Shown piece after piece: positions 3,161 through 30,820 of a stretch of DNA of 31,339 bases. This stretch comes from a virus, in the IMG/VR virus record IMGVR_UViG_3300012920_000153, positions 1 to 31,339 of that record, one strand, 5' to 3'. Each line of letters starts with the position of its first letter. Positions within the stretch are counted from its first letter, which is position 1. The notes beneath the pieces were generated by a model. It had not been told where the DNA came from. It did no database searches and saw only the letters and a program-made list of their open reading frames with translations. Both the position numbers and the translations under genes were made by a program.

Positions 3161-6100
3161 ATGATAGGAACTGGAATCGAAAAACGTATACAAGTTCAAC
3201 AAGTAATAGAAAGTCAACTTCCTGAGTTCATTCTCTCAGAGAGTCCGAAGACTGTTGACTTTTTAAGACAGTATTATATTTCACAAGAGCATCGTGGTGG
3301 TGTTGTAGATTTAAGTGATAATTTAGATCAGTATTTAAAATTAGATAATTTAACTCCTGAAGTAATTGTAGGTATAACCACACTGACTTCAGGTATAACA
3401 GCAGCAAGTGATACCATTACAGTGTCATCTACGAAGGGTTTTCCAAATCAATATGGATTACTAAAAATAGATGATGAGATTATAAGTTATACAGGTTTAA
3501 CAACAAACACATTCACTGGATGTATTAGAGGATTTAGTGGTATTACATCATACACAGATCCAAATAATCCGGGTGAGTTGGTATTTAAGTCAACAACAAC
3601 AGCAAGTCATACATCTGGTGTATCTGTAAATAACTTAAGTGTTTTATTTTTGCAGGAGTTTTACAAAAAAATCAAGTCATCATTAACTCCGGGTTTAGAG
3701 GATACAAAGTTTATATCAGAATTAGATGTTAGTAATTTTATAAAAGAGTCTAAGTCATTATATCAATCAAAGGGAACTGCTGAATCATTCCGTATATTAT
3801 TCAATGCAATATATGGTGTTACACCTAAAATTATTGATTTAGAAGATTTTCTCATCAAACCATCAGGTGCTGAATTTATACGCAGAGAAATTGTGGTGGC
3901 TGAGGTCATAAGTGGTGATCCAAATAAATTACTAGGACAAACTGTAACCAAATCAACTGATTCACAAACAACTGCTTCAGTGTCTGAGGTAGAGATAATC
4001 ACAAGGAATAGAAAAAGTTTTTATAAGTTAAGTTTATTCGTCGGATATAATGATCGTAGTGGTATTTTAGGAACATTCACAATACCCGGAAAGTCAAAAG
4101 CAATAGGTAATGTGGCAGTAGGATCGTCTGTAATCACTGTGGACTCCACTGTTGGGTTTAACACTACTGGTAGCGTAAGATCGGGCATCAACACGGTTAC
4201 ATACACTGATAAGACTGTAAATCAATTCTTAAATTGTACTGGTATAACTTCAGCGATTTCTTCCACTGATGATGTTAGAGCAGATGAGTTTATATTTGGA
4301 TATGAGGATGGAGATCTTAATAAAAAAGTAGAATTAAGAATTACTGGTGTACTATCTAACTTCGTATTAATACCATCAGATACTTCAAGTGTTACTACTG
4401 AAGGTGAAAGAATTTCGGTAAAAAATCTTGGAGAGGTAATCGCGAACCCTCAAAATAAAACTAAAAAAGAAGTATTCTTTAATTCATGGATCTATAATAC
4501 CTCATGCACCTTTCAAATTGATAATTTTCCGAGTGCACCAACTGGTGGATCAGCTAGTGTTTTACTTAAAACTAATACAGATAGGTCAAACTTAAAAGTT
4601 GGTGATAAAGTTGATATTATAAGAAGAGGTGGTTCGCAACAAGTTGAAGTATCTGACGCTGTTGTAGATGCAATATTACAAAATAATCAGATAGATTTAA
4701 ACAATGTTTTGAATTTCACTCCATCAGCAGATGTAGACTATGATATTCGTAGAAAATTAGACAGAGCATTTAGTTCAACTTCTCAAATTCAGTATGGAAA
4801 TGATGTAATCACATCAAATGTTCAGAATACTTACAATGACAATGATGTAAATTATTATGTAGCTTCATCATCTCTTCCTTCATATGATATTACAGAATCT
4901 GTTTTCAAAAGTACCATTCCTGATACACTAGGTGGAGATTTACAGGGTTTCAATAATGTTACTCAAAAGTTTTCTATTATTTCATTCCCAACTGCAACTA
5001 GATTTAGAACTGGCGATTCCGTATTCTACAAACCAAATAATCCTGATTTAGTTTTAGGTGGTTTAGAAGAGGGTGTATATTACGTTGAAAAATTATCAAA
5101 TGCAAACCAAATTAAACTATATGCATCACGATCATTTATACCAGTTTCTAATAATTTAGAGTTTACTGCTGGAACATTAACAGTTGGAGTTGCAACAACT
5201 GCAATCACAGGTGTAAGCACTATCAAACTTGATAGTGTTAATGGTATAAGAGTAAATGATACACTATCAAATTCTAATATTAGTAACTCTGGTATATCAA
5301 CTGTTACTGCCATTGATCCACTCACAAATATAGTAACTATAAGTGGAACAACCATTGGAACATTAAATCAAGGTTCAATACCTAGAGGAGAGAAGGTAAC
5401 TATCTCAGGTAAACATAGTTTTGTTTTATTAAGACATAAAAATGAAGAAATAGGTGTTCAAAAAATACTTAAGAAGTTTCCTGCCGATGCAAATATTAAA
5501 TCAGGCACTTCATTCCCAACTGAACCCGGTTCAACTGGTATCTTAATAAATGGTGTTGAAATAACAAATTATAAATCAGAGGATAAAATTTTCTATGGCC
5601 CATTATCAAATATCAAAATTTTAAATGGTGGTTCTAATTTTGATGTAATAAATTTACCAAAAGTTGTAATACCTCAAGCAGGATCTGGTACAACTGCCTT
5701 AATGCAACCTGTTATTAAAGGTTCTTTATCAGAAGTACTAGTTGATCCACAGTTTTTTGATATAGAAAAGGTACTATCAGTTAGTATATCTGGTGGAAAT
5801 GGGTCTGGAGCTGTATTGAAACCGATTGTCCGCAAAAGACATAGGGAATTAACATTTGATGGAAGAAAAACTTCAGTTAGAGGTGGGATAGATGTTTTAT
5901 TTGATCAAATTATATTTGATAGACCTCATAATTTATTAAATGGTGAAGCACTGATTTATGATAAAAACGAAAACTCTCCGATAGGTATTGGAACTTCTGG
6001 TGGATCTAACTTAGATCAAAACAGATTCTTATCCGATGGATCTGTATACTATGCTCAAGTTGTTGGTATTTCTTCAATTAAACTATATGACAATATAAAT

Positions 6101-9100
6101 GATTTTAATTCTGGTACAAATCCAGTTGGATTTACTACAATTAATACACAGGGAACACATAAATTTAGAACATTAGAGAAGAAAAATTTCTTAAGATCCG
6201 TATTAATTGAAGATGCTGGTACGAATTATACGAATCGCAAATTGTTGGTGAAACCTGCAGGTATATCATCTATTGAGAATACAGTTAATTTTAAAAATCA
6301 TGGATTTTTAGACGGTGAGATAATTACTTACAATTATGAGTATGGTGGCACTGGTATTGCTGGAATAAGTTCCGCAAATCAATATAAAGTAATAAAATTA
6401 GATGATGATACATTCAGAGTTGCAAATGCTGGTGTAGGTGCGACAAATAATAGCGATTATAATAGAGGTGATTATGTCAAATTTACATCCTCTGGAACTG
6501 GATTGCAAGAGTTTGCATATCCAGATGTTACATTAAGTGTGAATGCTGTTTATTCGCCAACCACATTTACGAGAAATGGAGATTTGGTTATTACTCCTGT
6601 GGTTAGAGGATCGATAATAGAAAACTATCTTTATGAACCCGGAACTAACTATGGATCTGAAATATTAAATTTTGAAGTAAAACCCGGAGTAACACTGCAA
6701 AATGGTAAAGAAGCTGAGTTAAAAGTTTTAACAAATAAGGGTAGAATTACAAATGTTGATGTTAGATTTGGTGGAAAAGAATATTTCTCACCACCTGATA
6801 TTGACCTAGTAGGAGTAGGAACTGGAGTAGGTGCAAGGTTTAGACCTATCGTATCTGATGGAAAGATTACAGAGGTTGTAATAATAAACTCTGGTATTGG
6901 TTACACAGAATCACCTGTAGTAAGAGTAAAACCTGCTGGAGCAGGTCAAATATTTGAACCATCAATAAGATCCCTTACAGTTAACAACTTAGAAAGATTT
7001 GATGATGAAATATTGTTGAAAGAATCCGAGGATAACCTACAGTATGCTGTTGTTGGATATAGCACTTCACTTTATACAAATGAATTTGGTGATCCTAATT
7101 CTATTACAGGACACTCTCCTATTATAGGATGGGCATATGATGGAAATCCAATTTATGGCCCATATGGTTATGATGATCCTAAAAATGAAAATTCATCAAT
7201 TAAAATATTGAACACAGGGTATGTTCTTAACACAGGTAATGTGGTAAATAGACCATCATCATTTAGTAATGGATTTTTCGTTGAGGATTATGAATATACA
7301 GATAGTGGTGATCTTGATGAAAGTAATGGTAGGTTTGCAAAAACCCCTGATTTTCCAAACGGTGTTTATGCTTATTTTGTAGGTGTTGCAACAGGATCTT
7401 CAGGTAACTTAGAACCTAAATTCCCATATTTTATTGGTGAGAATTACAGATCAGAACCCGTATCAGATAATTTTATTATCGATCAAAGTAATTTTGATTT
7501 AAATTCACAAGGATTAATAAGAAACACACTTCCATATAAAGTATCAGACAAATTTGCTGATAACGATTTTATAATTGAATCGAATGAGATTATTGAACAA
7601 AATTCAATTGTTGAGTCTGTTACTAGCGGAGGAATAGAAGATTTTCAAATAATAGAGTCAGGTAGTGATTATAAGGTAAATGATACATTAAACTTTGATA
7701 ATTCAGGTACCTCTGGAGGAGGTGCTAGTGCCTTTGTTTCGGAAGTTAGGGGTAAAGATATATCAAGTGTCAACACTAATATCCAGACGTATAGAAACGT
7801 CGTTTACGTAAGGGAAAATGATAAGCAAGTGAGTGCTTTCATTTCAACATCACATACATTTGCTAATAATGATAATATTGTTGTTTCAGGGTTAACAACA
7901 AGTATTCCTAATCTTACAGACTCTCATGTAGTCGGTGTTTCTTCAGATAGGTTTGTATTATACAAATCTATGGGGGCTAACAACACTGTTGGAGTTGTAA
8001 CTGACATATATGTCTCCAAGATACCAGATAGAGTATCTGCAGGTAGTAGTATTGGTATTGGTACAGAAAGATTAAGAGTTTTGAATGTTTTTGGTAAAAA
8101 ACAAATTCTTAGAGTAAAGAGAGGTCTTGTATCAAATGCAAACATAGCATCACATGCATTATCATCTGCAATTTTAACTGTTCCACAAAAGTTTACAATA
8201 CCGTTAGAAACTCCACCTTTTGAATCAAAAATTAATGAAAAAGTATTTTTCAATCCACAAGAGCAAGTTGGTTTAGCATTAACTGCTGGAACTGCTATTC
8301 CGATGACTAAACCATTTACAGAGGGTGAAACATCAAAAGTAATTAGTGTTCCTGCAAAGAGTATATTTTTACCAAATCATCCATTCATCAACAATCAACA
8401 GTTAACGCTTACTATACCTGCTGGTGCTGGTGCAATATCTTGTGGAACAGGTACAACATTATCATCTACATCAAGTTTTAATCTAATTAACGGTGCAACT
8501 GTATTTGCTAAGAGAATATCTAAAGATTTAGTAGGTTTATCAACTGTAAAAACTGGAGAAACAATTTTCTTTAAAACTGCACCTAATGATAACTTTGAAT
8601 ATCTATTAGAATCAAACCACACTCAAGTTACAGGTAAGGCACAAAAAATTATTGCTCATGTAGCAGTCACAACATCTCATAATTTAAATGAGTTGGATAC
8701 TATTAACTTAAGTGTCAAACCAAATTTGACTGGTGGAACTGGAATAAACACCTCTGTCATTGTTAAATATGTCGCATCAGAAGATAAGATATTAATCGAT
8801 CCACAAATAATTGCACAAGCAAATATTGGTGCTGATACAATATTTAAAACTGATCATGGATTTGAGACTGGTCAAAAGATTTTTTATGATGGATCAACAA
8901 ATCAAGCCACTGGATTAACAACATCTGCTTACTTTGTTTACAGAATTGATGATGATTCATTCCAATTAGGTGAAACAAGAAAGGATGTAACTAATGAACC
9001 ACCAACAATTGTTGCTATTTCTACAAATACAGGTGGTAATTCACAAACTATATCTTTAATTAATCCACCATTATCAGTTGTTAGAAATAATGATTTGGTA

Positions 9101-12100
9101 TTTTATGTTTCGGATTCTTCATTAAATGGATATAATTTTAATTTTTATTATGATAGTGATTTTAACAATGAATTTGTTTCAACTGGCACAACAAGTTCGT
9201 TTGTAGTTGAAAAAAATGGAACTATTGGTGTAGGAACTACCTCAACTGTTACCTTAAAGTATAATTCTGAAAATCCATTAAACATTTATTATGCTATTGA
9301 AAAATCTGGACATATTAGCACCACAGATAGTGATGTGAAAAATGGGTCAAAAATTAATTATGTTAATAGTGAGTATGATGGAAAGTATACTGCATTTGGA
9401 GTAGGAACAACCTCATTTAATGTTTCACTAAAATCTGTTCCAGAAAAAATAAGTTATATTAGAAATGAAGTTGATGATATATCATACTCAACTAATTCAA
9501 GTAGTGTATCCGGTGGTATCTCCAAAATTAATTTGGCATCAAGTGGTTTTGGATACAAAAAAATACCCGGAATTTCAAGTATTACATCAATAAATGGAAT
9601 AAATGGTAAAGTTCTTTGTTTATCTAGAAATATTAACAAGATTAATAAAGTTCGTATACTAGATCCCGGATTTGAATATCATTCTGATAAAACTCTCAAA
9701 CCTGAAGCTAGAATTTCCCCAACAATTACTCTTAAAAATTCCGACTCAATTAGTAATATAGAAATATTATCTGGAGGAGCAGAATATCTTACTGCACCTG
9801 ATATAGTTGTGGTTGATCCTGAGACTGGAAAATTAACAGATCAAGGTGTTATTGAAGTAACATTAACATCAAGTTCTATTTCATCTGTTGACATCAAAAG
9901 TTCACCTAAAGGCTTAAAACCTGTTGAGCAAAGAATAAGAACAATTAATAATTCTAATGGAGTGTCAGTATCTAATGTTGTTGGCATGTCAAATACCACT
10001 ACGACAGGTATTGTAACATGCACATTAGTAACACCTATTGGAGGATTTACTCCTGCTCCATTTGCAGTTGGTGATAAAATTTTTGTTGAAGGTATTCAAC
10101 TTGATGATCCTACTGCTGGTACAGGATATAATTCCACTGATTATGGATTCGATTTTCTTACTATTTCTGATTATCAAAACACAAGTCCTGCAAAATTAGA
10201 GTTTAATTTGGCAGGTATATCTACTGCGATAGGTATTGCAAAAACAAATCAACAAAATTATGCAACAATCACCAATTTTAACAAATATCCACAATTTAAA
10301 ACAACACAGAGAACATCTGAATTTACTGTTGGAGAACGATTAAGTATTAAGGAAAATAATAGTTTTGTAATTGTTGATCTAAATGTTCTAGAGAACAATC
10401 CTGACGAATTCATAAAAGTAATAGGATCTAGAGAATTACTTAAAGGTGATGTCATCAGGGGTGATATATCAGGAACTGTTGCGACAATTAACACAGTCTC
10501 TAACAATCGTGGTATATTTGAAATTGATTATTCACTTAAACAAGCTCGTGGTTGGAATGATGAGGTAGGAAAGTTGAGTGAAGACTATATGGTTCTTCCA
10601 GATAATGACTACTATCAGAACTTGTCATATACAATTCAAAGTCCACAAACATTTGAGGACATAGTTGATCCAGTGAACAGACTTGTTCATACAAGTGGAT
10701 TAAAGAATTTTGCTGATACCGGAATCACTTCTACAGCAAGATCTGGAATAAGTTCTGATAGTGTTTTGTTTATAAACAGAGACTTAATTACTGAAGAAAG
10801 GGTTGATACAATCAATAACTTTGACTTTGCTGTAGATGTAGATACTCTAGATGGTGGAAGTAAATCGAAATTCTTGAAGTTGAAAGATAGAAAACTTTCA
10901 AGTTTTATTGAGTGTTTAACAAACAGAGTATTGGATATTGATGATATAAGTTCACGATTCTCAAATACAGATAGCACACAAAATAATAGAGTTGAATTAC
11001 CAATTAATGATAATTATGAAAGTTTCTTAATACAATCAATAAATCCATCAACGAATGAGATACAGATAGATGAAGTAATTGTGTTTAAGGATAACAATGA
11101 CACATTTACATTTGAAAGAAATAATATTGGAATCGGTACACAAAAGATATTAGATGTACAAGGTTTTACTGATTCAGCGACAAATGATACTACTTTAAGA
11201 ATCACACCTACTGATCCGTTTGAAGATGATTTGGATATAAAAGTTTATCGTAGTAAATTTAATAGTCCAACAGCTGGAATCAATACAGAGGCGATTGGAT
11301 TTGTAAATCTCATAGGTGTTGCTAAAACTGCTGCCCCAAGCACAACAATTAGTCTTGTGAGTTCACCAGTTGGAATTACATCAGCATTTTATTCAACTAT
11401 TGAGGTAACAGATAATAAAACTAATGAGAAAAACTTAGTTGATATCTATGCTACTCATGATGGAACTAATTCATACTTTAGTGAGTATTACGTTGATAGT
11501 GGTGATATTGACAACTTCTCTAATAATTTTATTGGTACATTTACATCAAATTTAAGTGGCGGTGTTTTGTCAATTGATTTCCAGAATACTGGTATTAATA
11601 CAGCAACATTAAGATCTAAAACTGTTGGATTTGGAACTACTTCAGTTGGTATTGGCACATTTAGATTTAAAGATGCTGCCCAGATAGATGGTACAGAGAG
11701 AACCTTAAATTTACAATCTAATTTCAAGAGAGTATCTGGAACATCTACAATAGTTGGTGTAGATTCAAATAAATTTAGTACTATTAAAAGTATCGTTAAA
11801 GTTGCTTTTGGATCAACAATAGCGATTCATGAAGTTTTGGCAACTCATAACGGTACAGATACTTCAATAGTTCATTACCCATTCATTTCTATAGGTAGCA
11901 CATCAGGTATTGGTACATTCGTTTCCAATTTTGCTAATAATAAGTTTAATGTAAGATTCAATCCTGATAGTGGTGTAAGTAATGCTGAAGTATCTGCTTA
12001 TAGTGAGGTAGTTTATACTGATCTAGATTTATTCAATACTCCACCAGACTTTACATACGGACGTATCACTGAATCAGTTGCAGTTCGTCAATACAATGCT

Positions 12101-15100
12101 GTCAATGGAACAAGAGCAAATACAACTGAATTTGATCTAAATCATGAAGGAGTGCCAATTTTTGCAAAAACATTTACACCAACTGATGCAACAAAATTGA
12201 ATCCTGTTACAGGTGTATTTACAATTAGAGATCATTTCTTTAGCACTGGAGAAAAATTAAAATACACACCGGGTAGTACATTTATAGGTATTACAGCTGA
12301 TGCAATGGAAACTGCTGCTGGTGTAGATTTACCAACTGATGTTTTTGCGATTAAAGTTGATGATGATAAATTTAAACTTGCAACATCACTATCTAACGCA
12401 AGTGCAGGAACCGCAGTTACATTCACTTCACTAGGTGCTGGTAATGTTCATACTCTTTCTATGGATAAGAGGTTAGAAAAGGCAATTATTAATATTGATG
12501 GTTTGATTCAGTCACCAATCGCATTTACACCAATTAATACAACTCTAACTAATAACGGTGGAAGTATATCAGCATCAGATTCAATCATAAGTATCGCTGG
12601 TATATCATCAATTAGTGATGGAGATATTTTGAAAATTGGCACAGAATTGATAAAAGTAAATGCAGTTGGTCTTGGAACATTAGCGATAGGGCCAATAACA
12701 GGTGATGGTGCGTTCAAATTAGTTGGTGTTGAGAGAGGAACATTAGGCACAACAGCAGCATCTCATAATGATTCAACTGCTGTAAGGAAGTTTAAAGGAT
12801 CTTACAATATTGTAAACAGTAAAATTCATTTTACAGAGGCACCAAGAGGCACTAACTTTGCTACTAAAAATGCATCTGGTTTACAGTTCCCAAGATCTGA
12901 ATTTCATGGAAGAGTATATCTAAGAAATGACTACACAAAAAATAGAATATTTGATGATATATCAGATGGATTTACAGGTATAGGTGCAACACATATTGTT
13001 AAAGTTGGTGGTGCTAATACAACTGGAATTCAAACAGGTGGTAGCATAGTTTTATTAAATGGTATTTTCCAGACACCTACCACTGAAAATAACCAAGGTA
13101 ATAATTATGACTTTATTGGAGATAACACAGCAGGTATCACAACAATTACATTTACAGGTATTACCTCAACAGATGGTGTTACAAAAGTAGCAAGTCAATC
13201 TGACGTTAACTTAAATCAGTTACCAAGAGGGGGCATGATTGTTTCTCTCGGTTCCACTGGTGGTTTAGGTATTGCACCAACTGTAGGTGCTGCTGTTACT
13301 GCAGTTAAAAATAATGATGGTCAGATAACTGCAGTAGGTATAGGAACTTTAGATAGACACGGATCTGGATATCGTGGTTCAGTTGCAATAGGTATAACTG
13401 ATATTGCTTATGAACATAGATTTATAAGATCTGGAATAGGTTCTATAAAAACTCATCCAACTAATTCAAATATATTCACTAGAACTGCAAGAACTGCTTC
13501 TAACGCAGTTTACACATCTCATACTGGGTTCTTAGAAATAACTGTTGCAAATCATGGATTAGGTATAGGAACATTTGTCGGAATCGATACTGGAGGATTG
13601 GTCTTTAGTTGTTCTAAAGATCATTTTGGTACCGAACACCCTTATCCAAGATCTGGCCCAACACCAAGTAATTCATCCGGTGGAGATCCAATTGTTGGTA
13701 TTGCAACTGATATTAGATCAGTAACAGATGATACTTTCACAATCTTTGTAGGACAAGGAGGTGGAGGAGGAAATGGTGCAAGTATAACAGCAACTGTAGG
13801 TGCTGGTGGAACATTGGCTTTCACTGTTGCCGGTGCAGGAATATCTTACACTAACCCTCAAATTATTGTACCAGATCCATCGTATGAGGATCTTGAGGTC
13901 ATAGGTGTATCTCGTTTAGGAATTGGTGCTACAACCGAAACAGGACTTGGATTGAAGGTATCTGTAAATGTAGGTGCTAGTTCAACTGTTGGTGTAGGTT
14001 CAACCTTACATACCGTCGAATCATTTAAAGTTACAAGAAGTGGTTTTGGGTTTAAGAAAGGTGATGTTGTTAGACCAGTTGGTTTAGTTACTGCATTAGG
14101 TTTGTCAAGCAAAGTAAGTGAATTTGAGTTAACTGTCACAGAAATATTTACTGACAATTACGCATCATGGGATTTTGGTGAATTTGATTTTGTTGATAGT
14201 ATAAAAGCACTACAAGATGGTGTAAGAACAAGATTCCCAATTGAGTTAAATGGTGAACTACTAAGTTTTGAGAGTGATAATCCCGAAATTAAAATGGAAA
14301 ATCTTCTTTCCATCTATGTCAATGGTGTCTTACAAGAACCCGGTGTTTCATATACTTTTGAAGGAGGAACTACATTTGACTTTAACGATCCCCCAGATGC
14401 TGATGATGATATTTCAGTATTTTTCTATAAAGGAACATCTGGAGGGTCGAATCCTGATACTCGAATAAAGGAAGTGCCTGAAACATTAAAAACTGGTGAT
14501 GTTGTTGAAATCGGTGCAACACAGAGTGATCCTGTAGCACAAAATCCAAGAACTGTCATAGGCATAACAACCTCTGATACATTTGAAACTGAAATATACA
14601 CTGGGCCAGGTATAGGACAAACATTTAAACCAGTAAGTAGTTGGAGAAAACAAAAAATTGATAAGATAATTAGAGGAGAGGTGGTATCTAAATCAAGGAA
14701 TTCCATTGAACCATTAATTTTCCCAACATCAAGAATAATTGGTGATCTTTCAACTAGTGAAAATGATAGTATATTTGTTGATGATGCTAAATTCTTTAAC
14801 TATGAGGAAGATAATTCTGCTCTTGTAATTAATAGCATAGGAGTAAGGATTGTTAATGATGTTAGTCCTGTTGCTGCTGCTTTAACAGCGACAGTATCTA
14901 CTTCAGGAACTATTTCTGCTATCACAGTAGTAAATGGTGGTAGTGGATACGTAGGGACTACCACAAGCATTTTGATCGGAGCACCATTAGGTGTTGCAGC
15001 CACCACAGCACCAGCAGTTACTTCAGGTATTGCTACATTTGCAACTGCTACAGGTAACATATCAAGTGGTATCATCACTACAGTCACAGTAAACAACATA

Positions 15101-15721: not shown

Positions 15722-15731
15722 TGATTTCACG

Positions 15732-15739
15732 TATAAATA
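15732..15739 (+). promoter_or_regulatory. T4-type late promoter upstream of gp8
   Basis: An exact TATAAATA lies in the 36-base gap between the gp7 stop (15721) and the gp8 start (15758), with 18 bases between the octamer and the ATG. That is the same spacing as the gp25 promoter. The gap is A-rich and holds no clear Shine-Dalgarno sequence. It restarts transcription after the 12.6-kb gp7 gene. Confidence 0.78.
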
Positions 15740-15757
15740 TAGAAAAAAAGTAATAAA

Positions 15758-17332: not shown

Positions 17333-20300
17333 ATGCCACAAAAAACGAATCTTAATATAAGTCCTTACTACGACGATTTCAAGAAGGATAATAATTTTTA
17401 TAGAGTCTTGTTTAATCCGGGTAAACCCGTTCAAGCAAGAGAACTAACAACTCTTCAATCTATCTTACAAGATCAGATTGAATCTTTTGGTAGTCATATG
17501 TTCAAAGAGGGATCAATGGTGATTCCCGGTAATATACAGTATGATGCAGAATATTTTTCAATAAAATTAGATTCTATTCACTTAGGAACAGCAGTCTCAG
17601 TATATGTTGAAAATTTAAAGGGTAAAATTTTAACAGGAGCTAGTAGTGGCATCAAAGTTCTTGTTGATAATTACTCACTTCCAAATGATTCGACAGGAAT
17701 CACAGATTTAACATTTTTTATTAAGTATCTGGATTCTGGAAATTCTAATACTGTATCTTTCTTAGAAGATGGTGAGGATTTATTAGTAGATGAGGGATTT
17801 GTTTATGGCAATACACCAATAAATTCTGGAGATTCTGTAGCGTCTCTTATTGAAACAGACGCTTGTGCAACAGGTAGTGCTGTATCAATTGCTAATGGAA
17901 CTTTCTTTGTAAGAGGTTGTTTTGTTAATGTATCTGCAGATAAAATTGTTTTAGATCCATATACAAATAATCCATCATATAGAGTTGGTTTATTCATACA
18001 GGAAGAATTAGTTTCAGCAGATTCAGATTCTTCACTTAATGATAATGCAAGAGGTTTTTCAAACTTTGCAGCTCCCGGTGCTGATAGACTTAAAATATCT
18101 ACCACCTTAACAAAAAAAGGTTTAACTGATTTTAATGATAAGAACTTTATTGAATTAATTCGTCTTGATGATGGAGTTATAAAAAAATTACAAAATGAAA
18201 CTCAATATTCTTTAATAAGAGATTATTTTGCAAAAAGAACTTTTGAAGAGTCTGGAAATTATTCTTTAAAAAATTTCAAACTAGAAGCATTTGAGTCATT
18301 AAATGATAGTATATCAAATGAGGGTATTTTTACAGACGATGAGTTAACTGATCAAGGTGCAACTCCTTCTGATGAATTACTAGCTCTAAAAGTATCTCCC
18401 GGAAAAGCATATGTAAGAGGTTATGACATCGAAAGACCTGTTACAACAGTATTAGATATTAATAAACCAAGAGACAAAAAAACAATTGAAAATTCATCTG
18501 TTCCATTTAGACTTGGCACTCTAATACAAGTTAATCGTGCAGCAGGAACACCTAAAATTGGTTTAGATGGAAGTGGCACTATCAGTTTATTTGATCAAAG
18601 AAAAGGGGCAACAAATAATGCAACTAGTGGCTCAGGAACTTCAATTGGACATGCAAGAGTATATGCATTTGAGAATCATGATAGGACAGGCGGTGACGCT
18701 GATATAAAGTTTGATTTATACCTATTTGATGTACAAACAAAGACATTTTTAACTGTAAATAAAACATTAAGTAATAGTCAATTACCTGCTACAGCGTTTG
18801 TAGAAGGTTTAAAGAGTGGTGCGACAGGATTTGCTCATGCAGCAGGTGGTAATAGCACAACATTTACTCTGATGAACACATCAGGAAAATTCATAAAGGG
18901 TGAAGAGATAAGTATAAATGGAAGAACTGTTGATACAAGAACTATAGTAACTGTAGATGAAAAATCACTGAGAGATGTTAAATCTGTATTTCAAGATGCA
19001 ACTGCTTTAGGTTTACAGACTGATTTTAGTGCAGACGTAGTTCTAAAACCTTCACCAATAAAAGAATTAGGGCCTGGGGATAATGTTAGTATAAGTGGAT
19101 CTAATGTTTTAACCTGTGCAGGTAAGACATTTGGTTCACTAAGAGTTGGTGATATATTAATATTCAATTTACCGGCAACATCCAATGCACCAAGATTTAA
19201 TCGTGTATCTGCTATTTCTAATGATTTAAAATCAGTAACACTAGCAGCAGTGACAAATGTATCAGGAGTTTGTGTAGGAACTGTATTAGCATCCACAACT
19301 TCAACTGGTGTTCATGTCGGTAAACCTGCGGTAGGTAATGAAAATACTGGATTATTTGCACAATTACAGGAAAAAAATGTATCAGACGTTGATTTAACTG
19401 GATCAGAGTTAACAATAAAAACTCAAATTACAGGTAAATCAACTGATTCTGTAGGAACACTTACATTTAATTTATCAGATCTAGTAGGTATTTCAAGTGC
19501 CTTGTTTGAAACATTTGATAATGATAGATATTCGGTTCATTTTGATGCTGGTGGTATTGCATCATTATCATCTGATCAATTTACTTTGTCGAATAATGCA
19601 TCAACAGTAACTTTAAAAGGATTACCCGCAAGTCAATCAGATCTAGTCATAAATGCAACTGTTAAAAAAGTTTCCATAAGCACAAAACAAAAAACATTTG
19701 GTCGAAGTCAACCAATTCTTGTAGATAAATGTATTTCAGGTATATCAACCGTAAATGGACTCACACAAAATACTGTTGCGTTTGGATTAAGAGTTGAGGA
19801 TAAGGTTATTTCTTTAAATACACCTGATGTGGTTGATGTTGTTGGTGTATATGAATCAGTTACAAATACTTTTCCTGTATTAGATAAATTAGTATTTGTT
19901 AGTGGACTTTCATTAAATACTGCATCAATATTAGGTGAAAAGGTTAAGGGTTCTCAGAGTGGTGCGATTGCTCAAATAACTGATAGACCAAATGCCACTG
20001 AAGTTGAGATCGCATATCTCACTAGCAAAAGATTTAGAGTTGGAGAACTTGTAACATTTACAGAGAGTAATATTGTTTCTAATTTACAAAATGTAACTGC
20101 AGGATCATACTTAAACATAACATCTAATTACACTTTAGATAAAGGGCAAAGACAGAGTTTCTATGATTATTCTAGGTTAATTAGAAAAGATAATGTAAAA
20201 GTTCCAAATAGAAAATTAAAAATTATTCTTAACAGATATACCGTGCCATCTAATGATAAAGGTGATGTATATACAGTAGGTTCATACGATGAAGCTAGAT

Positions 20301-23300
20301 TTGGAAAAGATATTCCAATTCTTGAAGGTGGAATCAGAGCAACAGATACACTTGATTTTAGACCAAGAGTTGCTGATTTTACTGGAACAACTACATCACC
20401 ATTTGATTTTAATAGTAGAACTTTTCAGACTGCTGGCACCAATCCAACGTTAGTTCCTTCACCAAATGAAAGTTCAATCATAGGTATTAGTCATTATTTA
20501 CCAAGAACTGATAAAATTATATTAGATCCATCTGCGAATATTGATCAAAGGTATACCTCTGGTGAGTTTGTTGTAGTCGAGGGTGTTTCATCTAAAAATC
20601 CATTACCCCCAAATGATATTGAGTTGGGTATGACAGTTGCTACACTTGAATTACCTGCATATCTGTATGATCCTAAAGACGCTGTAATCACTGTCGTTGA
20701 TAATCGTAGATATACAATGAGAGATATTGGTAAAATTGAAGATAGAGTTGAAAATTTAGAGGTTGTAACATCTTTAAGTTTACTAGAATTAGATACAAAA
20801 ACTTTACAAGTCCAAGATGCTGATGGTTTATCAAGATTTAAATCTGGTTTCTTTGTAGATGATTTTAAAAACAATTCGCTGTTGGATATATCCAATCCTG
20901 ATTGTAAAGTAGATATAGATTTAGAAAATCAAAATCTAATTGTCCCAACAGATTTTTATGCATTAAAACCTGAATTAGCATTAGATCCATCAATAGATTC
21001 CACAACTGCTGATTTTTCATCAAACCTAACACTTCTTGATTCTGGAGTTAGAAAAACAGGTGATCTATTAACTTTGGATTATGAAGAGGTAACACTATTA
21101 GATCAACCACTTGCTTCTAGAATTGAAAATGTTAACCCATTTAGTGTCATAACATTTAGAGGTAATATGACAATAAATCCTAGTGCTGATATTTGGACTA
21201 GGAATGTTATATTAGATAATGGTAATAGAAGTGTATTTGGAGATACTGAGGGTACATTTGCATCACAGGTCTTGGTTAGTAGTGAACCTGAAGTTCATAT
21301 ACGTTCTAGAAATATTGAATTTGATGCAGGGACATTAAAACCTAATACACAATACTATGCTTTCTTTGATAGTGCAAGTGGAATTGATATAATTCCAAAA
21401 TTAATTCAGATTGAAATGGAATCTGGATCATTTCAAATCGGAGAAAGAGTATTTGCAGTCATTCAAAGTAATACATCAGGTGATTTTGGGCCTGAGATAA
21501 TAGGAAGATTTAGAATATGTCAACCAAATCATAAGAGTGGGCCTTTTTCAGATCCATCTTTGGTTTATGCTGCTGATCCTTATAATCCAAGTGTTACAAT
21601 ACCGAGTGCATATTCAGCGTCATCAACTATTCTTAACGTTGATACTGCATCATTAGCAGAGGAAGCACAAGGAAGATTTTTTGGAAGAATAGATCCATTA
21701 GCAGTATTCATTGGAGAAACAAGTGGTGCTATTGCTGTCATATCTAGAAGTGTAACTAGTATAAGACTTATAACTGATGGAGTAGGAAGTGTTAGAGGTT
21801 CATTCTTTATAAGAGATCCATTAACCACTCCTGTCCCACCATTAAGATTTACAAATGGACAAAAAACATTTAAATTGACATCAAGTTCGAGTAATTTACT
21901 AACTCAGGAAAACTCTCCTGCAGTAAGTAGTGTATCATCAACTTACATAACCACAGGAACAGTAGATACTTTATCACAAACTGTGATTGGAATAAGGGAA
22001 TTACCACCACCTCCCATACCTCAAATTATTAATATTACAAATATATTCCAAACAGTTGAAGTAGATGACGGAGACCCTCTTGCACAATCATTTACTGTTG
22101 ATGAGACCGGAGCATTCTTAACATCTGTTGACATCTTTATGAAGAAGAAAGATGTTAAAGAAAATCTAATAGTTCAAATAAGAACAATGGAGTTGGGAAC
22201 ACCAACATTGCTACAAGTGCAAAATTTTGCAAGTGTAACTCTTGATCCATCACAAATTAATATATCAGATGATGCTTCTGCTGCAACAAATGTCGCTTTC
22301 CCTTCACCACTTTATCTTGAGGGTGGAAGATCTTATTGCGTTGTTCTCCTTGCACCTACAACAAATAATTATGAAGCATGGATCGCTAGAATGGGTGATA
22401 CTACCATTGATACCCAAACACTACCAGCATCAGAGAGTGTAGTTATATCTCAACAATATATTGGTGGTAGTTTATTTAAATCTCAAAACGGATCAATTTG
22501 GACTCCAAGCCAATTTGAAGATTTAAAAATAAAAATTAACAAAGCAAAATTCACAACGAAAAATGCAACAGCATTCTTCTACAATCCATTGATAGATTAT
22601 GAGAGTGGTCAAGTTCCTACTCTGACATCTAATGCCATTAAAGGATTACCACGTAAACTAATAGTCAGAACCGATAATATGACTTCTTCCGGTATGACAA
22701 ATTTACTTGTGTCGGGTAGAAAGGTAAGTGATAGCACATCTGCTGGTGCAGTCAATGGATTGATTGAATCTACTGGTGGCCCAATTAATGCTAGAACTAT
22801 AACAAATCCCGGTATTGGATATTCAAATGGACAATTCACTAATGTTCCATTATATGCAATCACTGGTAACGGAACTGGTGCTACAGCAACAGTGGATATT
22901 TCTGTTGGTGTTGTGAATTCGATTAGTATTAGTAATGCTGGTAACGGATATGCGGTTGGGGATGTGGTTGGTTTGACCACAGCAAACATGGTGAAGGGTG
23001 GGGGTGCTGAGATAACTGTTTCAACAATCACAGGCACTGATACTTTATACTTAACTAACGTTCAAGGTCAGGAATTTACTGCTGGACAGGATTTAGTTAT
23101 TTACAATAATAACGGTACTGCTGTTGCATATGCAAACACAGACATTGTTTCATCATCAGTGTTAAGTCCTCTATTTGAAGGAAATGTAGTTGAAGTATCA
23201 CATTATAATCATGGAATGAGTGCAGACAATAACAAACTTCAATTATCTAATGTAGAACCAACAACAAAACCGGTTAAAATTGAATCTGCAATTTCATTAC

Positions 23301-24550
23301 AAGATAGCACTATCATTGTGGGATCAGCAAATACATCTGAGTTTGCTACATTTGAAGGTATTACAACATCCACTGGTTTTGTAAAAGTTAATAATGAAAT
23401 TATTTTCTACAATACGATCACAAATGTCGGTCTTGGCATATCTGAAAGGGGTGTTGATAGTTCATTAATTTCATCTCATCCTATTAATAGTCTTGTTCGT
23501 AAATATGAGTTTAATGGATTATCTCTAACAGGCATCAACACAACACATACAATGCCTAGCACTAACCTATTACAATCTAAAAAAGATATTGATAAGTACT
23601 ATCTTGAGATATCAAGAGGAACTGGAAGACCTAATCTTCAAGATAGGTCAAGTGGTGATAGTATGGCATGCTTCACAGACGAAAGATCTGGTGGTGGAGA
23701 TAGAATAAACGCATCTAAAAATATTCAGTACAATTCTGTTTATCCAGTGTTTAATACACTTCAGCCCGGTCAAACTAAAATTTCCACACAATTAAGAAGT
23801 GTGAGTGGAACCAGTGCGGGATCATTCAACTCATCCACAAATGCATTTACAGAGGTTTCATTCCTTGATCAAGGATATGAGGATATTGAATTAAATAAAG
23901 TAAATCCTCTAACAACAACAAGATTGGTTGCTTCTTCTCAGAATGAGAACGAACATCTAACTAATTTACCGAAGAGTAGATCTAGTACTTTATCCATGAA
24001 CTTATCAACTGAGGATGAGAATCTTTCACCTGCCATTGATACTATGAATGGAACTGTGATTTATGTGAGGAACAGACTTAACAAACCTGTTACTGATTAT
24101 GCAAATGATAATAGAGTGAATTTGAATACAGGTGATCCACACGCTGCAGTTTATATTTCCAATCGTGTAAATATCAAACAACCAGCAACATCATTGAAGG
24201 TATTGGTCAGTTCAGATCGTAGAGATTCAGCTGATTTCCGTGCACTATTCAAATTATTCAGACAGGATGCTGAAGCAACAGAACCAACATTTGAGTTATT
24301 CCCCGGATTTGATAATTTAGATGATACTGATGGAGATGGATTTGGTGATCAGGTTATTGATTCATCTAAAAACTCTGGTAGACCAGACGCATTGACTCCT
24401 GCAAGCACAGAAGGTGAATTTGTGGAATATGTTTTCACAATTGATAATCTTAGTGAATTTACAGGATTCCAAATCAAAATTGAAATGAGTGGTTCAAATG
24501 AAGCAGAATCACCTATATTTAAAGATCTAAGAGTTATTGCACTAGCATGA
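17333..24550 (+). CDS. DUF4815-type giant tail/baseplate structural protein (2405 aa)
   Basis: The N-terminus (residues about 1-65: NLNISPYYDDF, NNFYRVLFNPGKPVQARELT, TLQSILQDQIESFG, GSMVIPGN) is the hallmark of DUF4815 proteins of T4-like marine phages. It continues with VSPGKAYVRGYDIERPV near residue 355. A second conserved block (about 1050-1190) includes AYLYDPKDAVITVVDNRRYT and MRDIGKIEDRVENLEVVTSL. A third (about 1580-1690) begins DPLAQSFTVDETGAFLTSVD. Later come a GxGY module (about 1821-1883), an RG...H module (about 1982-2061), and a C-terminal beta region with an Asp-rich loop at 2330-2339. By position after gp8 it stands where T4 has gp9/gp10, so a role at the wedge periphery or in fibre attachment is likely; equivalence to gp10 is inference. 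It starts three bases after gp8 and ends in an ATGA overlap with the next gene. Confidence 0.85.
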   Translation: MPQKTNLNISPYYDDFKKDNNFYRVLFNPGKPVQARELTTLQSILQDQIESFGSHMFKEGSMVIPGNIQYDAEYFSIKLDSIHLGTAVSVYVENLKGKILTGASSGIKVLVDNYSLPNDSTGITDLTFFIKYLDSGNSNTVSFLEDGEDLLVDEGFVYGNTPINSGDSVASLIETDACATGSAVSIANGTFFVRGCFVNVSADKIVLDPYTNNPSYRVGLFIQEELVSADSDSSLNDNARGFSNFAAPGADRLKISTTLTKKGLTDFNDKNFIELIRLDDGVIKKLQNETQYSLIRDYFAKRTFEESGNYSLKNFKLEAFESLNDSISNEGIFTDDELTDQGATPSDELLALKVSPGKAYVRGYDIERPVTTVLDINKPRDKKTIENSSVPFRLGTLIQVNRAAGTPKIGLDGSGTISLFDQRKGATNNATSGSGTSIGHARVYAFENHDRTGGDADIKFDLYLFDVQTKTFLTVNKTLSNSQLPATAFVEGLKSGATGFAHAAGGNSTTFTLMNTSGKFIKGEEISINGRTVDTRTIVTVDEKSLRDVKSVFQDATALGLQTDFSADVVLKPSPIKELGPGDNVSISGSNVLTCAGKTFGSLRVGDILIFNLPATSNAPRFNRVSAISNDLKSVTLAAVTNVSGVCVGTVLASTTSTGVHVGKPAVGNENTGLFAQLQEKNVSDVDLTGSELTIKTQITGKSTDSVGTLTFNLSDLVGISSALFETFDNDRYSVHFDAGGIASLSSDQFTLSNNASTVTLKGLPASQSDLVINATVKKVSISTKQKTFGRSQPILVDKCISGISTVNGLTQNTVAFGLRVEDKVISLNTPDVVDVVGVYESVTNTFPVLDKLVFVSGLSLNTASILGEKVKGSQSGAIAQITDRPNATEVEIAYLTSKRFRVGELVTFTESNIVSNLQNVTAGSYLNITSNYTLDKGQRQSFYDYSRLIRKDNVKVPNRKLKIILNRYTVPSNDKGDVYTVGSYDEARFGKDIPILEGGIRATDTLDFRPRVADFTGTTTSPFDFNSRTFQTAGTNPTLVPSPNESSIIGISHYLPRTDKIILDPSANIDQRYTSGEFVVVEGVSSKNPLPPNDIELGMTVATLELPAYLYDPKDAVITVVDNRRYTMRDIGKIEDRVENLEVVTSLSLLELDTKTLQVQDADGLSRFKSGFFVDDFKNNSLLDISNPDCKVDIDLENQNLIVPTDFYALKPELALDPSIDSTTADFSSNLTLLDSGVRKTGDLLTLDYEEVTLLDQPLASRIENVNPFSVITFRGNMTINPSADIWTRNVILDNGNRSVFGDTEGTFASQVLVSSEPEVHIRSRNIEFDAGTLKPNTQYYAFFDSASGIDIIPKLIQIEMESGSFQIGERVFAVIQSNTSGDFGPEIIGRFRICQPNHKSGPFSDPSLVYAADPYNPSVTIPSAYSASSTILNVDTASLAEEAQGRFFGRIDPLAVFIGETSGAIAVISRSVTSIRLITDGVGSVRGSFFIRDPLTTPVPPLRFTNGQKTFKLTSSSSNLLTQENSPAVSSVSSTYITTGTVDTLSQTVIGIRELPPPPIPQIINITNIFQTVEVDDGDPLAQSFTVDETGAFLTSVDIFMKKKDVKENLIVQIRTMELGTPTLLQVQNFASVTLDPSQINISDDASAATNVAFPSPLYLEGGRSYCVVLLAPTTNNYEAWIARMGDTTIDTQTLPASESVVISQQYIGGSLFKSQNGSIWTPSQFEDLKIKINKAKFTTKNATAFFYNPLIDYESGQVPTLTSNAIKGLPRKLIVRTDNMTSSGMTNLLVSGRKVSDSTSAGAVNGLIESTGGPINARTITNPGIGYSNGQFTNVPLYAITGNGTGATATVDISVGVVNSISISNAGNGYAVGDVVGLTTANMVKGGGAEITVSTITGTDTLYLTNVQGQEFTAGQDLVIYNNNGTAVAYANTDIVSSSVLSPLFEGNVVEVSHYNHGMSADNNKLQLSNVEPTTKPVKIESAISLQDSTIIVGSANTSEFATFEGITTSTGFVKVNNEIIFYNTITNVGLGISERGVDSSLISSHPINSLVRKYEFNGLSLTGINTTHTMPSTNLLQSKKDIDKYYLEISRGTGRPNLQDRSSGDSMACFTDERSGGGDRINASKNIQYNSVYPVFNTLQPGQTKISTQLRSVSGTSAGSFNSSTNAFTEVSFLDQGYEDIELNKVNPLTTTRLVASSQNENEHLTNLPKSRSSTLSMNLSTEDENLSPAIDTMNGTVIYVRNRLNKPVTDYANDNRVNLNTGDPHAAVYISNRVNIKQPATSLKVLVSSDRRDSADFRALFKLFRQDAEATEPTFELFPGFDNLDDTDGDGFGDQVIDSSKNSGRPDALTPASTEGEFVEYVFTIDNLSEFTGFQIKIEMSGSNEAESPIFKDLRVIALA
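22795..22980 (+). repeat. GxGY-type module in the DUF4815 protein (residues ~1821-1883)
   Basis: Units ARTITNPGIGYSNGQF and VVNSISISNAGNGYAVGD bracket a TGNGTGATATVDI turn. The order and spacing match the gp14 and gp7 repeats. Confidence 0.6.
23277..23515 (+). repeat. RG...H beta-module, copy 4 (DUF4815 protein residues ~1982-2061)
   Basis: The segment reads ESAISLQDSTIIVGS, GFVKVNNEIIFYNTI and LGISERGVDSSLISSHPINS, keeping the 'v.nEii.y' strand, the RG turn and the S-S-H end of the copies in gp7 and gp15. Confidence 0.55.
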
Positions 24551-24744: not shown

Positions 24745-24765
24745 ATCATCATTATTATTGTATAG

Positions 24766-25340: not shown

Positions 25341-25341
25341 A

Positions 25342-27024: not shown

Positions 27025-27037
27025 CTCATAAAAAATC

Positions 27038-28104: not shown

Positions 28105-28109
28105 TATGT

Positions 28110-29774
28110 ATGGCACTCAATCCATTTTTTCTACAAGGATCACCCGGTGAACAGAGATTAATTCAAAATCTCATAAATGAGCAATTGCAAATTTATGGGG
28201 TAGAGGTTACTTATATTCCAAGGAAATTTGTAAATAGACAATCAATAATAGAAGAGGTTCAATCGTCAAAATTTGACGATAATTTTTTATTAGAAGCTTA
28301 TGTCAACACATATGAAGGTTACTCAGGTGCTGGAGATGTGATGACAAAGTTTGGTGTGAGTTTGAGGGATGAGGTTTCACTCACAATATCAAAAGAAAGA
28401 TTTGAAGATTTCATCGCACCATTTTTAGATCCAGATGATTATGAATTATCAACAAGACCTAGAGAAGGAGACTTAATATTTTTCCCACTTGGTAGTAGAT
28501 TATTTGAGGTAAAATTTGTTGAACATGAAAAACCTTTCTATCAGTTAGGAAAGAATTATGTTTATGAACTTCAATGTGAACTCTTTGAGTATGAGGATGA
28601 AGTCATTGATACATCAATTGATGAGATTGATACACAAGTTCAAGACGAAGGATTTATTACAACACTTAATCTTGTAGGTTCAGGAGCAACTGCGTCTGCA
28701 ACTGCTGTATTATCGCCTATATTATCAAATAGAGGTTATATAAGATCTATTACTGTGTTAAATGATGGTAGTGGTTATACATCAACACCCACAGTCTTCA
28801 TTTCGACATCAAGAGATGGTGCAGGTGTTAATGCTGCTGCTGTTGCAATTACAACAAGTGTAGGTGGATTAAACTCTGTCAAAGAATTAATATTAACAAA
28901 TGCGGGTGCTGGATATACACAAGCACCTGATATTAATATCGTAGGTGGTGGAGGAAGTGGTGCAATTGCTACATGTACAATCGAAAAAACACAAAGAGGT
29001 GTAATAGCATTTAATGTTATAAATGGTGGATCTGGATATTCAAGTTCTCCAGTGATTACAGTTTCTGGGCCAGGAGCAGGGGTTACTGCATTAGGAGAGT
29101 CAGTTATCGATATAGGAAATGCTACATTACAATCTATTAGAGTAAAAAATCCCGGTATAGGTTATACTACTGTACCAACTGTCACAGTTGGCAATCCGAA
29201 TATTATCACTGGTCGTGGTAATTTTGAATTAAATGATTTAGTAATTGGATTAGAATCAAATACAGAAGCACGAGTTAAAGAATGGGATGCAGATACTAAA
29301 GTTCTCAAGATATCAAATGTCGGTATCGGATCAACAGTTTCAGGATTTAACCCCGGTGAAGAGATTAGAGTTCAGACAAGTTTGAATGACGATAACACTA
29401 GAAACTTCAAGACTCTATTTGTCGGTGATTCAACAACAGCAGGTACAATTGGAGTACAAACTAATAAGATAACTGGTATCACTACGACAGGTATTAATGT
29501 TGGAGCAGCACTATCTGAAGTTAGTGGTGTTATAGGAATAGGAGTTACAGTACTAAGTATACAACCATCAGTTGTGATAATGAGTAGAGATTCACTGAAT
29601 ACTACCTCTACTACTATTCAGGTTGGTGCCGGAACCACTGCATTTGTTGCATATAATGTTCGCGAATATGATAAGAGAGATATATATGATGAATACAGTG
29701 ATAACGATGAGTTTGAAACTGAGGCAGATTCTATCATAGATTTTGCTGAATCTAATCCCTTTGGTACATACTAA
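28110..29774 (+). CDS. 14: Neck protein gp14 with a large repeat insertion
   Basis: The N-terminal 185 residues match gp14: NPFFLQGSPGEQRLIQNLIN, EQLQIYGVEVTYIPRKFVNR, DNFLLEAYVNTYEGYSG, DPDDYELSTRPREGDLIFFP, and FYQLGKNYVYELQCELFEYE. The C-terminus YDEYSDNDEFETEADSIIDF with SNPFG is also in gp14 style. The protein is 554 residues against 256 in T4. The excess lies between about residues 189 and 500. It begins with four GxGY units (NDGSGYTSTPTV, NAGAGYTQAPDI, NGGSGYSSSPVI, NPGIGYTTVPTV), followed by a segment ARVKEWDADTKVLKISNVG of a kind seen in marine-phage proteins. An upstream ATG at 28106 is in another frame and is not used. The TAA overlaps the gp15 ATG. Confidence 0.93.
   Translation: MALNPFFLQGSPGEQRLIQNLINEQLQIYGVEVTYIPRKFVNRQSIIEEVQSSKFDDNFLLEAYVNTYEGYSGAGDVMTKFGVSLRDEVSLTISKERFEDFIAPFLDPDDYELSTRPREGDLIFFPLGSRLFEVKFVEHEKPFYQLGKNYVYELQCELFEYEDEVIDTSIDEIDTQVQDEGFITTLNLVGSGATASATAVLSPILSNRGYIRSITVLNDGSGYTSTPTVFISTSRDGAGVNAAAVAITTSVGGLNSVKELILTNAGAGYTQAPDINIVGGGGSGAIATCTIEKTQRGVIAFNVINGGSGYSSSPVITVSGPGAGVTALGESVIDIGNATLQSIRVKNPGIGYTTVPTVTVGNPNIITGRGNFELNDLVIGLESNTEARVKEWDADTKVLKISNVGIGSTVSGFNPGEEIRVQTSLNDDNTRNFKTLFVGDSTTAGTIGVQTNKITGITTTGINVGAALSEVSGVIGIGVTVLSIQPSVVIMSRDSLNTTSTTIQVGAGTTAFVAYNVREYDKRDIYDEYSDNDEFETEADSIIDFAESNPFGTY
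28674..29205 (+). repeat. Array of four GxGY beta-repeats in gp14
   Basis: Protein-level repeats of about 40-50 residues each carry N-[DAGP]-G-[SAI]-G-Y followed by T/S-x-x-P-x-[VI]. The four hallmark motifs are at about 28760, 28899, 29022 and 29148. The region is absent from T4 gp14 and resembles units in gp7, gp8 and the DUF4815 protein. Confidence 0.7.
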
Positions 29775-30820
29775 TGTTAGGTACATATTACTATCACGAA
29801 ATACTTAGAAAGACAGTTATATCGTTTGGAACATTGTTCAATGATATTCATATTCGCCATAAAGGTAACGATGGAAAATCTATCAGTGACATGAAAGTTG
29901 CATTGGCATATGGCCCAATGCAGAAATTCTTAGCAAGACTTGAGCAACAACCCGAATTGAATCGTGCAACTCAGATTACATTGCCTAGAATGTCTTTTGA
30001 GATGACTAATATTGCTTATGATTCAACCAGAAAGGCAGGTATAACTCAGACGTTCAAAGCATCTGATGGCACAAATCTTAGAAAGGTTTTCATGCCAGTT
30101 CCTTATAATATTGGATTTGAATTAAATATTCTTGTTAAATTAAATGATGATGCACTTCAAATAGTAGAGCAGATATTACCATATTTTCAACCAGCGTTTA
30201 ATTTATCTGTGGACTTGGTAAGTGTGATCGGAGAGAAGAGGGACATAAGTGTCGTATTAGATAATATATCTTTTCAGGATGATTATGAAGGAGATTTTGC
30301 AACAAGGAGAGCATTAATATACACACTTAACTTCACTGCTAAAACATATCTGTTTGGCCCTGTTGCAGATACACCAGAGGGTATTATTAAAAAGGTTCAG
30401 TTGGATTATCATACAACTATGGACAGAGAGAATGCAAGAAGAGAACTCAGATATGTTGCTACACCGCAAGCAGTTAAGGATTATGATAATGATAACACTG
30501 CAACATTAACATTTAATGTAAATACATCTCAAGTCAGAATTAACGTAAATGACACATCAGGATTCGCTGTAAATGATCGAATTGTTATTGATAGTGAGGT
30601 CATGCAAATTAAAGAAATACCAGATGCAACAACCCTTGCAGTTAAGAGAGGATTTAGTCGAACTTTAAAGGCAGAACATATTGAAAATACAAAAGTTAAT
30701 AAATTAACTACAGCAGACGATTCTCTGATTGAAGTTGGAGATGATTTCGGATTTAACGAAACATCTAGCATATTCACAGATTCATTACAATTTAATCCTG
30801 CTACAAGGACAGACTCATGA
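29774..30820 (+). CDS. 15: Tail terminator / proximal sheath stabiliser gp15
   Basis: The N-terminus LGTYYYHEILRKTVISFGTL, then FNDIHIRH, and the segment KVALAYGPMQKFLARLEQQP with LPRMSFEMTNIAYDSTRK are hallmarks of gp15. It forms the hexamer at the head-proximal end of the tail and binds gp3/gp18. Other landmarks are VPYNIGFELNILVKLNDDAL, QIVEQILPYFQPAFNLSVD and the end of the core, FTAKTYLFGPV. The protein has 348 residues against 272 in T4. The extra part is C-terminal (about residues 240-315): VNDTSGFAVNDRIVIDSEVM and TTLAVKRGFSRTLKAEH, an RG...H module like those in gp7. It starts in a TAATG overlap with gp14 and its stop overlaps the gp16 start (ATGATGA). Confidence 0.94.
   Translation: MLGTYYYHEILRKTVISFGTLFNDIHIRHKGNDGKSISDMKVALAYGPMQKFLARLEQQPELNRATQITLPRMSFEMTNIAYDSTRKAGITQTFKASDGTNLRKVFMPVPYNIGFELNILVKLNDDALQIVEQILPYFQPAFNLSVDLVSVIGEKRDISVVLDNISFQDDYEGDFATRRALIYTLNFTAKTYLFGPVADTPEGIIKKVQLDYHTTMDRENARRELRYVATPQAVKDYDNDNTATLTFNVNTSQVRINVNDTSGFAVNDRIVIDSEVMQIKEIPDATTLAVKRGFSRTLKAEHIENTKVNKLTTADDSLIEVGDDFGFNETSSIFTDSLQFNPATRTDS
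30500..30715 (+). repeat. RG...H beta-module, copy 5 (gp15 C-terminal addition)
   Basis: The segment reads NTSQVRINVNDTSGFAVNDR, IVIDSEVMQIKEIP and LAVKRGFSRTLKAEHIEN. The order of strands, the RG turn and the final H match the modules in gp7 and the DUF4815 protein. Confidence 0.6.
30805..30809 (+). promoter_or_regulatory. Shine-Dalgarno for gp16
   Basis: AAGGA lies 7 bases before the ATG at 30817, within the last codons of gp15. It favours 30817 over the adjacent in-frame ATG at 30820, although either is close enough. Confidence 0.5.

Follow-up and report, generated by a model that had tools for sequence, protein, structure and literature searches.

The window analysed here, the whole stretch of 31,339 bases of the marine phage record IMGVR_UViG_3300012920_000153, contains a T4-type structural operon encoding gp25, gp6, a gp7-like protein of 4186 amino acids (aa), gp8, a DUF4815 protein of 2405 aa, a head-tail adaptor, a head closure protein and gp15. 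Judged by gp6, two cyanophages, S-SRM01 (61%) and P-SSM2 (60%), are its closest relatives with a name in the phage collection. A first-pass annotation had placed five copies of one small beta-module in three virion proteins of this operon. All five segments were found in frame at those places: three (named A, B and C) in the gp7-like open reading frame (ORF), one (D) in that of the DUF4815 protein and one (E) in gp15. Comparisons of sequence profiles confirm that the five are one homologous domain, weakly in the case of B.

The three host genes, the module copies and the loop halves and tail of gp15 all lie on the + strand. The gp7-like baseplate wedge ORF (3161..15721; phrog_2885, E-value 0) carries copy A (aa 69-166, 3365..3658), which has the E, RG and H of the module signature and an additional loop between RG and H, copy B (aa 1605-1684, 7973..8212), the weakest of the copies, and copy C (aa 3119-3222, 12515..12826), which pairs by profile with E, D and A. 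It also carries a degenerate sixth copy, A2 (aa 309-390, 4085..4330), in which the E...RG...H signature is absent (no RG, no H). A profile of gp7 residues 1-400 aligned at its positions 193-224 with residues 727-758 of T4 gp7 (E-value 0.005). The DUF4815 protein (17333..24550; PF16075, E-value 5.9e-54), some relatives of which bear the names VrlC or VriC, carries copy D (aa 1973-2066, 23249..23530), pairing by profile with A, E and C. Finally, gp15, the tail sheath stabiliser or tail terminator (348 aa, 29774..30820; PF16724 on aa 5-246, E-value 3.9e-86), carries copy E, whose barrel core spans aa 240-312 (30491..30709) within a profile segment of aa 233-326 (30470-30751).

As single sequences the five segments barely detect each other, with best E-values of 0.006 for A against gp15 and 0.034 for A against D. 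Profiles were built from orthologs checked for their genomic context (68, 43, 37, 28 and 74 distinct sequences for A, B, C, D and E, respectively) and compared with hhalign. The probability exceeded 90% for 7 of the 10 copy pairs (A-D 96.9%, C-E 96.8%, D-E 95.4%, B-C 95.3%, C-D 95.2%, A-E 92.3% and A-C 90.8%), and each copy reached at least 95% with at least one other; B-E was weaker (77%), and A-B and B-D failed. A2 matched A at 96.2% (E-value 2.4e-9), and no match above 9% was obtained between A2 and B, C, D or E. When all 13 ORFs of the window were scanned as 201 tiles of 95 aa, the top tile beyond the own region of a profile was another copy for each of the six profiles (A, A2, B, C, D and E). 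Against this, with profile C a non-copy tile scored 87%, marginally more than copy B (86%), and with A2 one scored 64%.

Hidden Markov models (HMMs) from which one copy had been left out recovered A (1.2e-9), C (4.6e-9), D (4.2e-6) and E (1.4e-16), and B weakly (0.012), against best non-copy values that ranged from 0.037 (in the search lacking B) to 0.46. Prior alignment of the rows with a profile of all copies may have helped slightly. These searches and the ortholog profiles support the dispersal of one module over three virion proteins, as first annotated. The related expectation that an HMM of a single copy would find the rest held in part: the models of A, C and D found other copies, and those of B and E found none below 0.05, the best values in a reversed-protein control being 0.041 to 0.69. 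In an alignment of 72 rows (A to E with their orthologs), all 72 sequences have E and R, 71 have H and 67 have G. The E, R and H columns are the only ones with the same letter at 80% or more in all five copies. Within each copy, 7 to 28 columns are conserved with a letter found in no more than one other copy.

It could be argued that the segments are alike only through the strand patterns common in beta-rich phage proteins, with no homology at all, since pairwise single-sequence scores lie near chance and one non-copy tile scored 87% with profile C. This explanation is contradicted by the recovery of four of the five left-out copies at 4.2e-6 or better, by the near-invariant E, R, H and G columns, and by the models of E, A and A2, which fall into one group of barrels. 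We consider it extremely improbable and reject it for four copies (A, C, D and E), the case of B remaining weak.

Weak likenesses were also seen elsewhere in the window. The stretch at 26125-26421 (aa about 262-360 of the ORF at 25342-27024) weakly resembles the barrel in its first half and is possibly a further degenerate copy; it scored 52-64% with the A2 profile and was the best non-copy match in four of the five leave-one-out searches. Another repeated element, HGF..GE.ITY...Y.VIK.DDDTFR, lies at aa 1065-1096 of gp7 (6353-6448), with more gp7 places recognisable by eye, and has a weak cross-match with profile C (iE 0.0016).

Structure models were computed for the whole of gp15 and for residues 1-400 of gp7, and thus for copies E, A and A2. 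For these three, the first-pass expectation of agreeing folds is borne out, each being one small beta-barrel. Copy E has six strands, with block means of the predicted local distance difference test (pLDDT) of 80-94 over aa 241-320; block means were 62-88 in A and A2, except for the loop of A (45), and the A2 model is likewise a six-stranded barrel. Copy E (aa 240-313) matched five phage chains at Z 10.5-13.1: the VP1 capsid protein at 61-151 (Z 13.1, root mean square deviation (rmsd) 2.5, 80 aligned), the JBD30 hub (Z 11.1, rmsd 1.9, 77 aligned), the Chi tail tip (Z 11.0, rmsd 1.6, 77 aligned), the Mystique tail tube (Z 10.7, rmsd 1.4, 67 aligned) and a 116-aa GP4 chain (Z 10.5, rmsd 3.4, 91 aligned). 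F1-ATPase barrels came next, from Z 8.5. Copy A matched VP1 (Z 11.2), GP4 (Z 10.4) and the JBD30 hub (Z 10.3); A2 matched the Mystique tail tube (Z 8.9) and LKA1 gp49 (4ru4 285-369, Z 8.1), and JBD30 and Chi were not among the structure matches listed for it. Residues 762-844 of T4 gp7 align over 83 residues to the gp7 model at 237-400 (Z 9.1), the model being 81 residues longer. Since A2 is about 81 residues long and lies inside that stretch of the model, it is read as a predicted insertion into a T4-type gp7 domain.

The same relatives were found by sequence. A combined C+E profile detected the Chi minor tail protein (8vjh, 1.3e-7) and the JBD30 hub (8rk3, 1.1e-4), with E, RG and H aligned, and gave 0.25 for VP1, in which E and RG are present and H is not; a pooled profile gave 4.3e-5 for 8vjh and 0.028 for 8rk3. 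None of the six window copies reached a Pfam family cut-off, and no Ig family was among the 21 Pfam families listed for the 72 modules, the fold matches listed being barrels. PF05354 (Phage_attach) for copy E (E-value 0.055, below cut-off), MJ0548_C (6 of 72 modules, best 4e-4) and PDZ matches in profile searches were judged to be chance.

Across the 185 loci retrieved by gp15 and gp7 queries, hits of the module profile fell only in gp7 (106 ORFs), gp15 (80) and the DUF4815 protein (28). Four other proteins, fetched since tblastn with the module consensus had matched them, all contain it: the tail sheath of P-RSM6 has two tandem copies in its N-terminal part (aa 96-170 and 180-246 in locus L366), both with E, RG and H, and the 'tail tube B' of Pelagibacter phage Skadi-1, a protein of Roseobacter phage CRP-902 and a tail protein of Staphylococcus phage SAP3 have one copy each. 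A tblastn count gave at least 35 records with a gp15 barrel; the barrel of Syn2, found by profile, is not among them. Cultured cyanophages include carriers of the gp15 barrel (for example P-HM1, S-SM2 and Syn2) and one that lacks it (S-RIM2). A search of predicted viral structures lists more proteins, a fibre protein and a major capsid protein among them; the part of gp15 that was matched is unspecified, and this is a lead only.

The module of gp15 had been annotated as a C-terminal addition, a description that does not hold: a conserved C-terminal tail (DDFGFNE..., 30740..30817), also present in most barrel-free marine gp15s, follows it. For this site, 257 gp15s were compared, comprising that of the window, 20 named phages picked for both kinds (10 with and 10 without the barrel) and 236 contigs, of which 80 came from the window gp15 query (all with the barrel) and 156 from two barrel-free gp15 queries (none with it). 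Three states were distinguished in the 256 marine sequences, that is, besides T2: barrel (91), EF-hand/dockerin-like loop (84) and short (81), proportions that mean nothing since the sample was built by query. The D-x-FGF tail is present in 91 of 91, 84 of 84 and 77 of 81 of these, respectively, and is absent from T2; it follows the barrel, which is thus internal to gp15.

The loop-bearing, barrel-free gp15s (loci L194, L195, L269, L270 and L277, with 79 contigs of L286-L365) have a DxNxDG...D loop ahead of the DDFGFNE tail; a single query (S-H9-1) accounts for 79 of the 84. They were selected by the first half of the 12-residue pattern D-x-[ND]-x-D-G-x-[VI]-[DN]-x-x-D, leaving the second half as the test, and this second half also fits, up to position 12, in all 31 distinct loops. 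On four loop tails, Pfam Dockerin_1 gave an E-value of 0.75 in one and nothing in three, with no significant Dockerin or EF-hand match, so that the loop is called EF-hand-like only. In the window, both halves of such a loop flank the barrel: the left half is at aa 236-241 (D-Y-D-N-D-N, 30479..30496) and the right half at aa 312-318 (T-T-A-D-D-S-L, 30707..30727). Residues D236, 238, D240 and D315 correspond to loop positions 1, 3, 5 and 12, and the barrel lies between them. Conservation was counted in 85 distinct gp15s with the barrel: 83 retain D236, 81 have N or D at 238, 79 have D240, 85 have D315 and 81 have L318, and 77 retain all four calcium-ligand positions; the barrel signature itself is present as E275 (85), R292 (85), G293 (79) and H302 (84). 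The window loop is non-contiguous, being interrupted by the barrel, and its position 6 is N241, mostly N and not G across barrel-bearing gp15s.

The gp15 barrel thus looks like a domain sitting inside a loop that elsewhere is an intact EF-hand/dockerin-like calcium loop, ligand positions surviving on both sides. This split calcium-type loop, with putative calcium binding, is the new part of the present analysis; no mention of an EF-hand-like loop in gp15, or of the domain as a dispersed family, was found among the titles and abstract starts listed from the open-licence literature, which is weak evidence of absence. States can differ between close relatives: among the pairs compared, the nearest of unlike state share 87% core identity (barrel and short) and 80% (barrel and loop). 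One might go further and suppose that a toggling barrel stands at the tail-neck junction on an EF-hand-like base that is split and depends on calcium, an arrangement that would make neck assembly or stability calcium-sensitive and let phages swap neck decoration with the gp15 core undisturbed; this possibility is tentative and rather unlikely.

The history of the copies was examined with two trees. In a module tree of 126 rows, a single branch separates each of A, B, D and E from the other rows, and two changes are needed for C; the five position groups together need 4 changes, which is the minimum. Support by the Shimodaira-Hasegawa-like approximate likelihood ratio test (SH-aLRT) was 100 for A, 100 for B, 97 for D and 92 for E (not starred). 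Median identity was 0.36-0.68 within a position and 0.14-0.26 between positions. This is a quick tree without bootstrap, built on 84 usable columns from rows chosen by position and similarity, and some of its long branches meet. On a tree of 70 gp15 cores (tail left out), whose bootstrap is not fully settled, 10 changes of the barrel label are required (shuffled mean 21.2), and starred branches force 6 of these.

The exchange of modules between genes suggested by the first-pass annotation is therefore retained as an ancient spread of one module and not as an ongoing process, each position being a lineage of its own on the module tree. The frequent changes of barrel presence at gp15 and the tandem copies in the P-RSM6 tail sheath would be expected if copies still moved by recombination among the genes of one genome. 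However, all E copies, those of distant phages included, form one group apart from A to D, and the five groups need only the minimum of 4 changes, which makes current exchange highly unlikely. Tree topology argues instead that the copies spread between genes long ago and that gains and losses of the gp15 barrel came later, most probably through recombination that exchanged gp15 C-termini among phages, because all E copies group together.

As to direction, the barrel most likely entered a gp15 linker that was an EF-hand/dockerin-like loop, and if the barrel ends lie close, as in a closed barrel, the acidic residues of that loop may still meet at its base. The converse, in which the barrel came first and its loss left the EF-hand-like linker behind as a scar, would account for flanks of the loop that match those of the barrel and for one EF-like row (L277) standing among barrel-bearing and short rows on the core tree. 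Yet removal of a barrel is not expected to restore the second half of the loop pattern, which all 31 distinct loops fit, and with T2 as the root, whose branch is very long, the earliest-branching marine rows are the EF rows of the S-H9 group. A scar is accordingly regarded as unlikely, and the order from loop to barrel as likely, not proven.

Other features of the window were also noted. A YHYH domain (PF14240, E-value 1.5e-23) is present at aa 1316-1409 of the baseplate wedge gp7 (7106-7387). A second dispersed element, 'GSGYTxxPxVxI', is seemingly common to gp7, gp8, the DUF4815 protein and the C-terminal part of the ORF at 28110-29774 (PHROG cross-matches). The sequence of a small ORF at 458-808 resembles that of an S-adenosylmethionine decarboxylase, which it may encode.

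We estimate at roughly 0.6 the probability that the module, a small beta-barrel of six strands, is an accessory domain of phage virion proteins, set in loops or linkers of ordinary T4-type parts and serving as a rigid brace. The role of the E, R, G and H residues would then be to keep the barrel intact and not to bind a ligand, with every barrel bracing its own neighbour, in the baseplate for gp7 and the DUF4815 protein and at the tail-neck junction for gp15. Passages of the paper on JBD30 describe a small six-stranded barrel in its baseplate hub, domain VI, which touches domain VII and thereby stabilises the baseplate (PMC11445458), and such bracing would fit the window copies better than carbohydrate binding.

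A shared carbohydrate- or surface-binding role had been proposed in the first-pass annotation, and received no direct evidence. According to passages of two papers, a six-stranded barrel inserted in the tailspikes LKA1 gp49 and KP34gp57 helps to form or deepen a sugar-processing catalytic groove (PMC5701251, PMC10653864); A2 matches the LKA1 barrel at a middling Z of 8.1, and a match of the pooled profile (0.0034) covers the first half of a capsule depolymerase domain. Moreover, a marine roseophage is said in part of another paper to bear several carbohydrate-binding accessory domains, one of them on the hub (PMC10276861), and the YHYH domain, present in gp7, is tied to carbohydrate binding in a passage of PMC7029224. 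Against modules that share a ligand and help the phage to hold cells stand the lack of any Pfam cut-off match in the six copies, a conserved surface common to the copies that does not extend beyond E, R and H, and the position of one copy on gp15 at the tail-neck end and of two in the P-RSM6 tail sheath, where a receptor is not expected. The only related Pfam names among the 72 modules were weak (PG_binding_5 in 1 of 72, E-value 0.021; K1-lyase_Rider in 3 of 72, best 0.026). With no direct support from Pfam or from shared conservation, carbohydrate binding was set aside as the default role, and we consider it quite unlikely.

Several points weigh against an accessory domain used as a brace. 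Copy B is weak in most tests. The evidence for a shared fold covers E, A and A2 of the six copies, the gp15 model is poor outside the module (mean pLDDT of the whole 53.5), and a combined A+D profile matched no phage structure chain, neither Chi nor JBD30. We infer that the matched JBD30 stretch, about residues 478-559, is domain VI, the JBD30 passages giving no range. Since tailspike barrels of this general fold serve sugar-processing sites, the proposed bracing by the window barrels is not the sole possible role.

On balance, the module is judged to be a real, ancient and reused domain of a known kind, and bracing is its most likely role. Phage virions are thought to grow by the addition of small domains to old parts, but sites that clearly show the state before and after such an addition are rare. 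In this case, five or six copies of one domain lie within a single genome fragment, and 256 marine sequences show one gp15 site filled, bearing the loop or short; with its barrel coming and going between related viruses, gp15 is a good case for how virus particles gain parts. The analysis also gives a signature (E, RG, H) for a domain whose window copies have no Pfam cut-off match.

Among known systems, the JBD30 hub resembles the window copies in sequence (1.1e-4 with the C+E profile) and in fold (Z 11.1 for E, 10.3 for A) and, like them, has the barrel as a small domain of a baseplate protein; it is a siphophage hub with one matched stretch, whereas in the window three T4-type proteins, including one at the neck end, share five or six copies. 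The barrels of LKA1 gp49 and KP34gp57 share the general fold and the insertion into another domain, but these proteins are not among the sequence-profile matches listed, and their barrel, in the passages cited above, shapes a catalytic groove. The LKA1 paper, in the part considered, likens its barrel to residues 222-345 of the P22 coat protein (the I-domain), a likeness that is second-hand for the window copies, P22 not being among the structure matches listed. The tail-tip minor tail protein of Chi (8vjh) is the best sequence match, with two stretches (536-572 and 941-983) and a fold Z of 11.0, and differs in belonging to another protein family, at the tail tip of another phage. Ig-like domains are reported by Fraser and colleagues (cited in PMC10276861) to be small, promiscuous and dispersed over phage virion proteins; the window module is likewise small and dispersed, but the fold matches listed for it are barrels, which are also similar to domains of F1-ATPase and elongation factors, rather than Ig folds. 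The module links marine baseplate proteins to solved siphophage domains.

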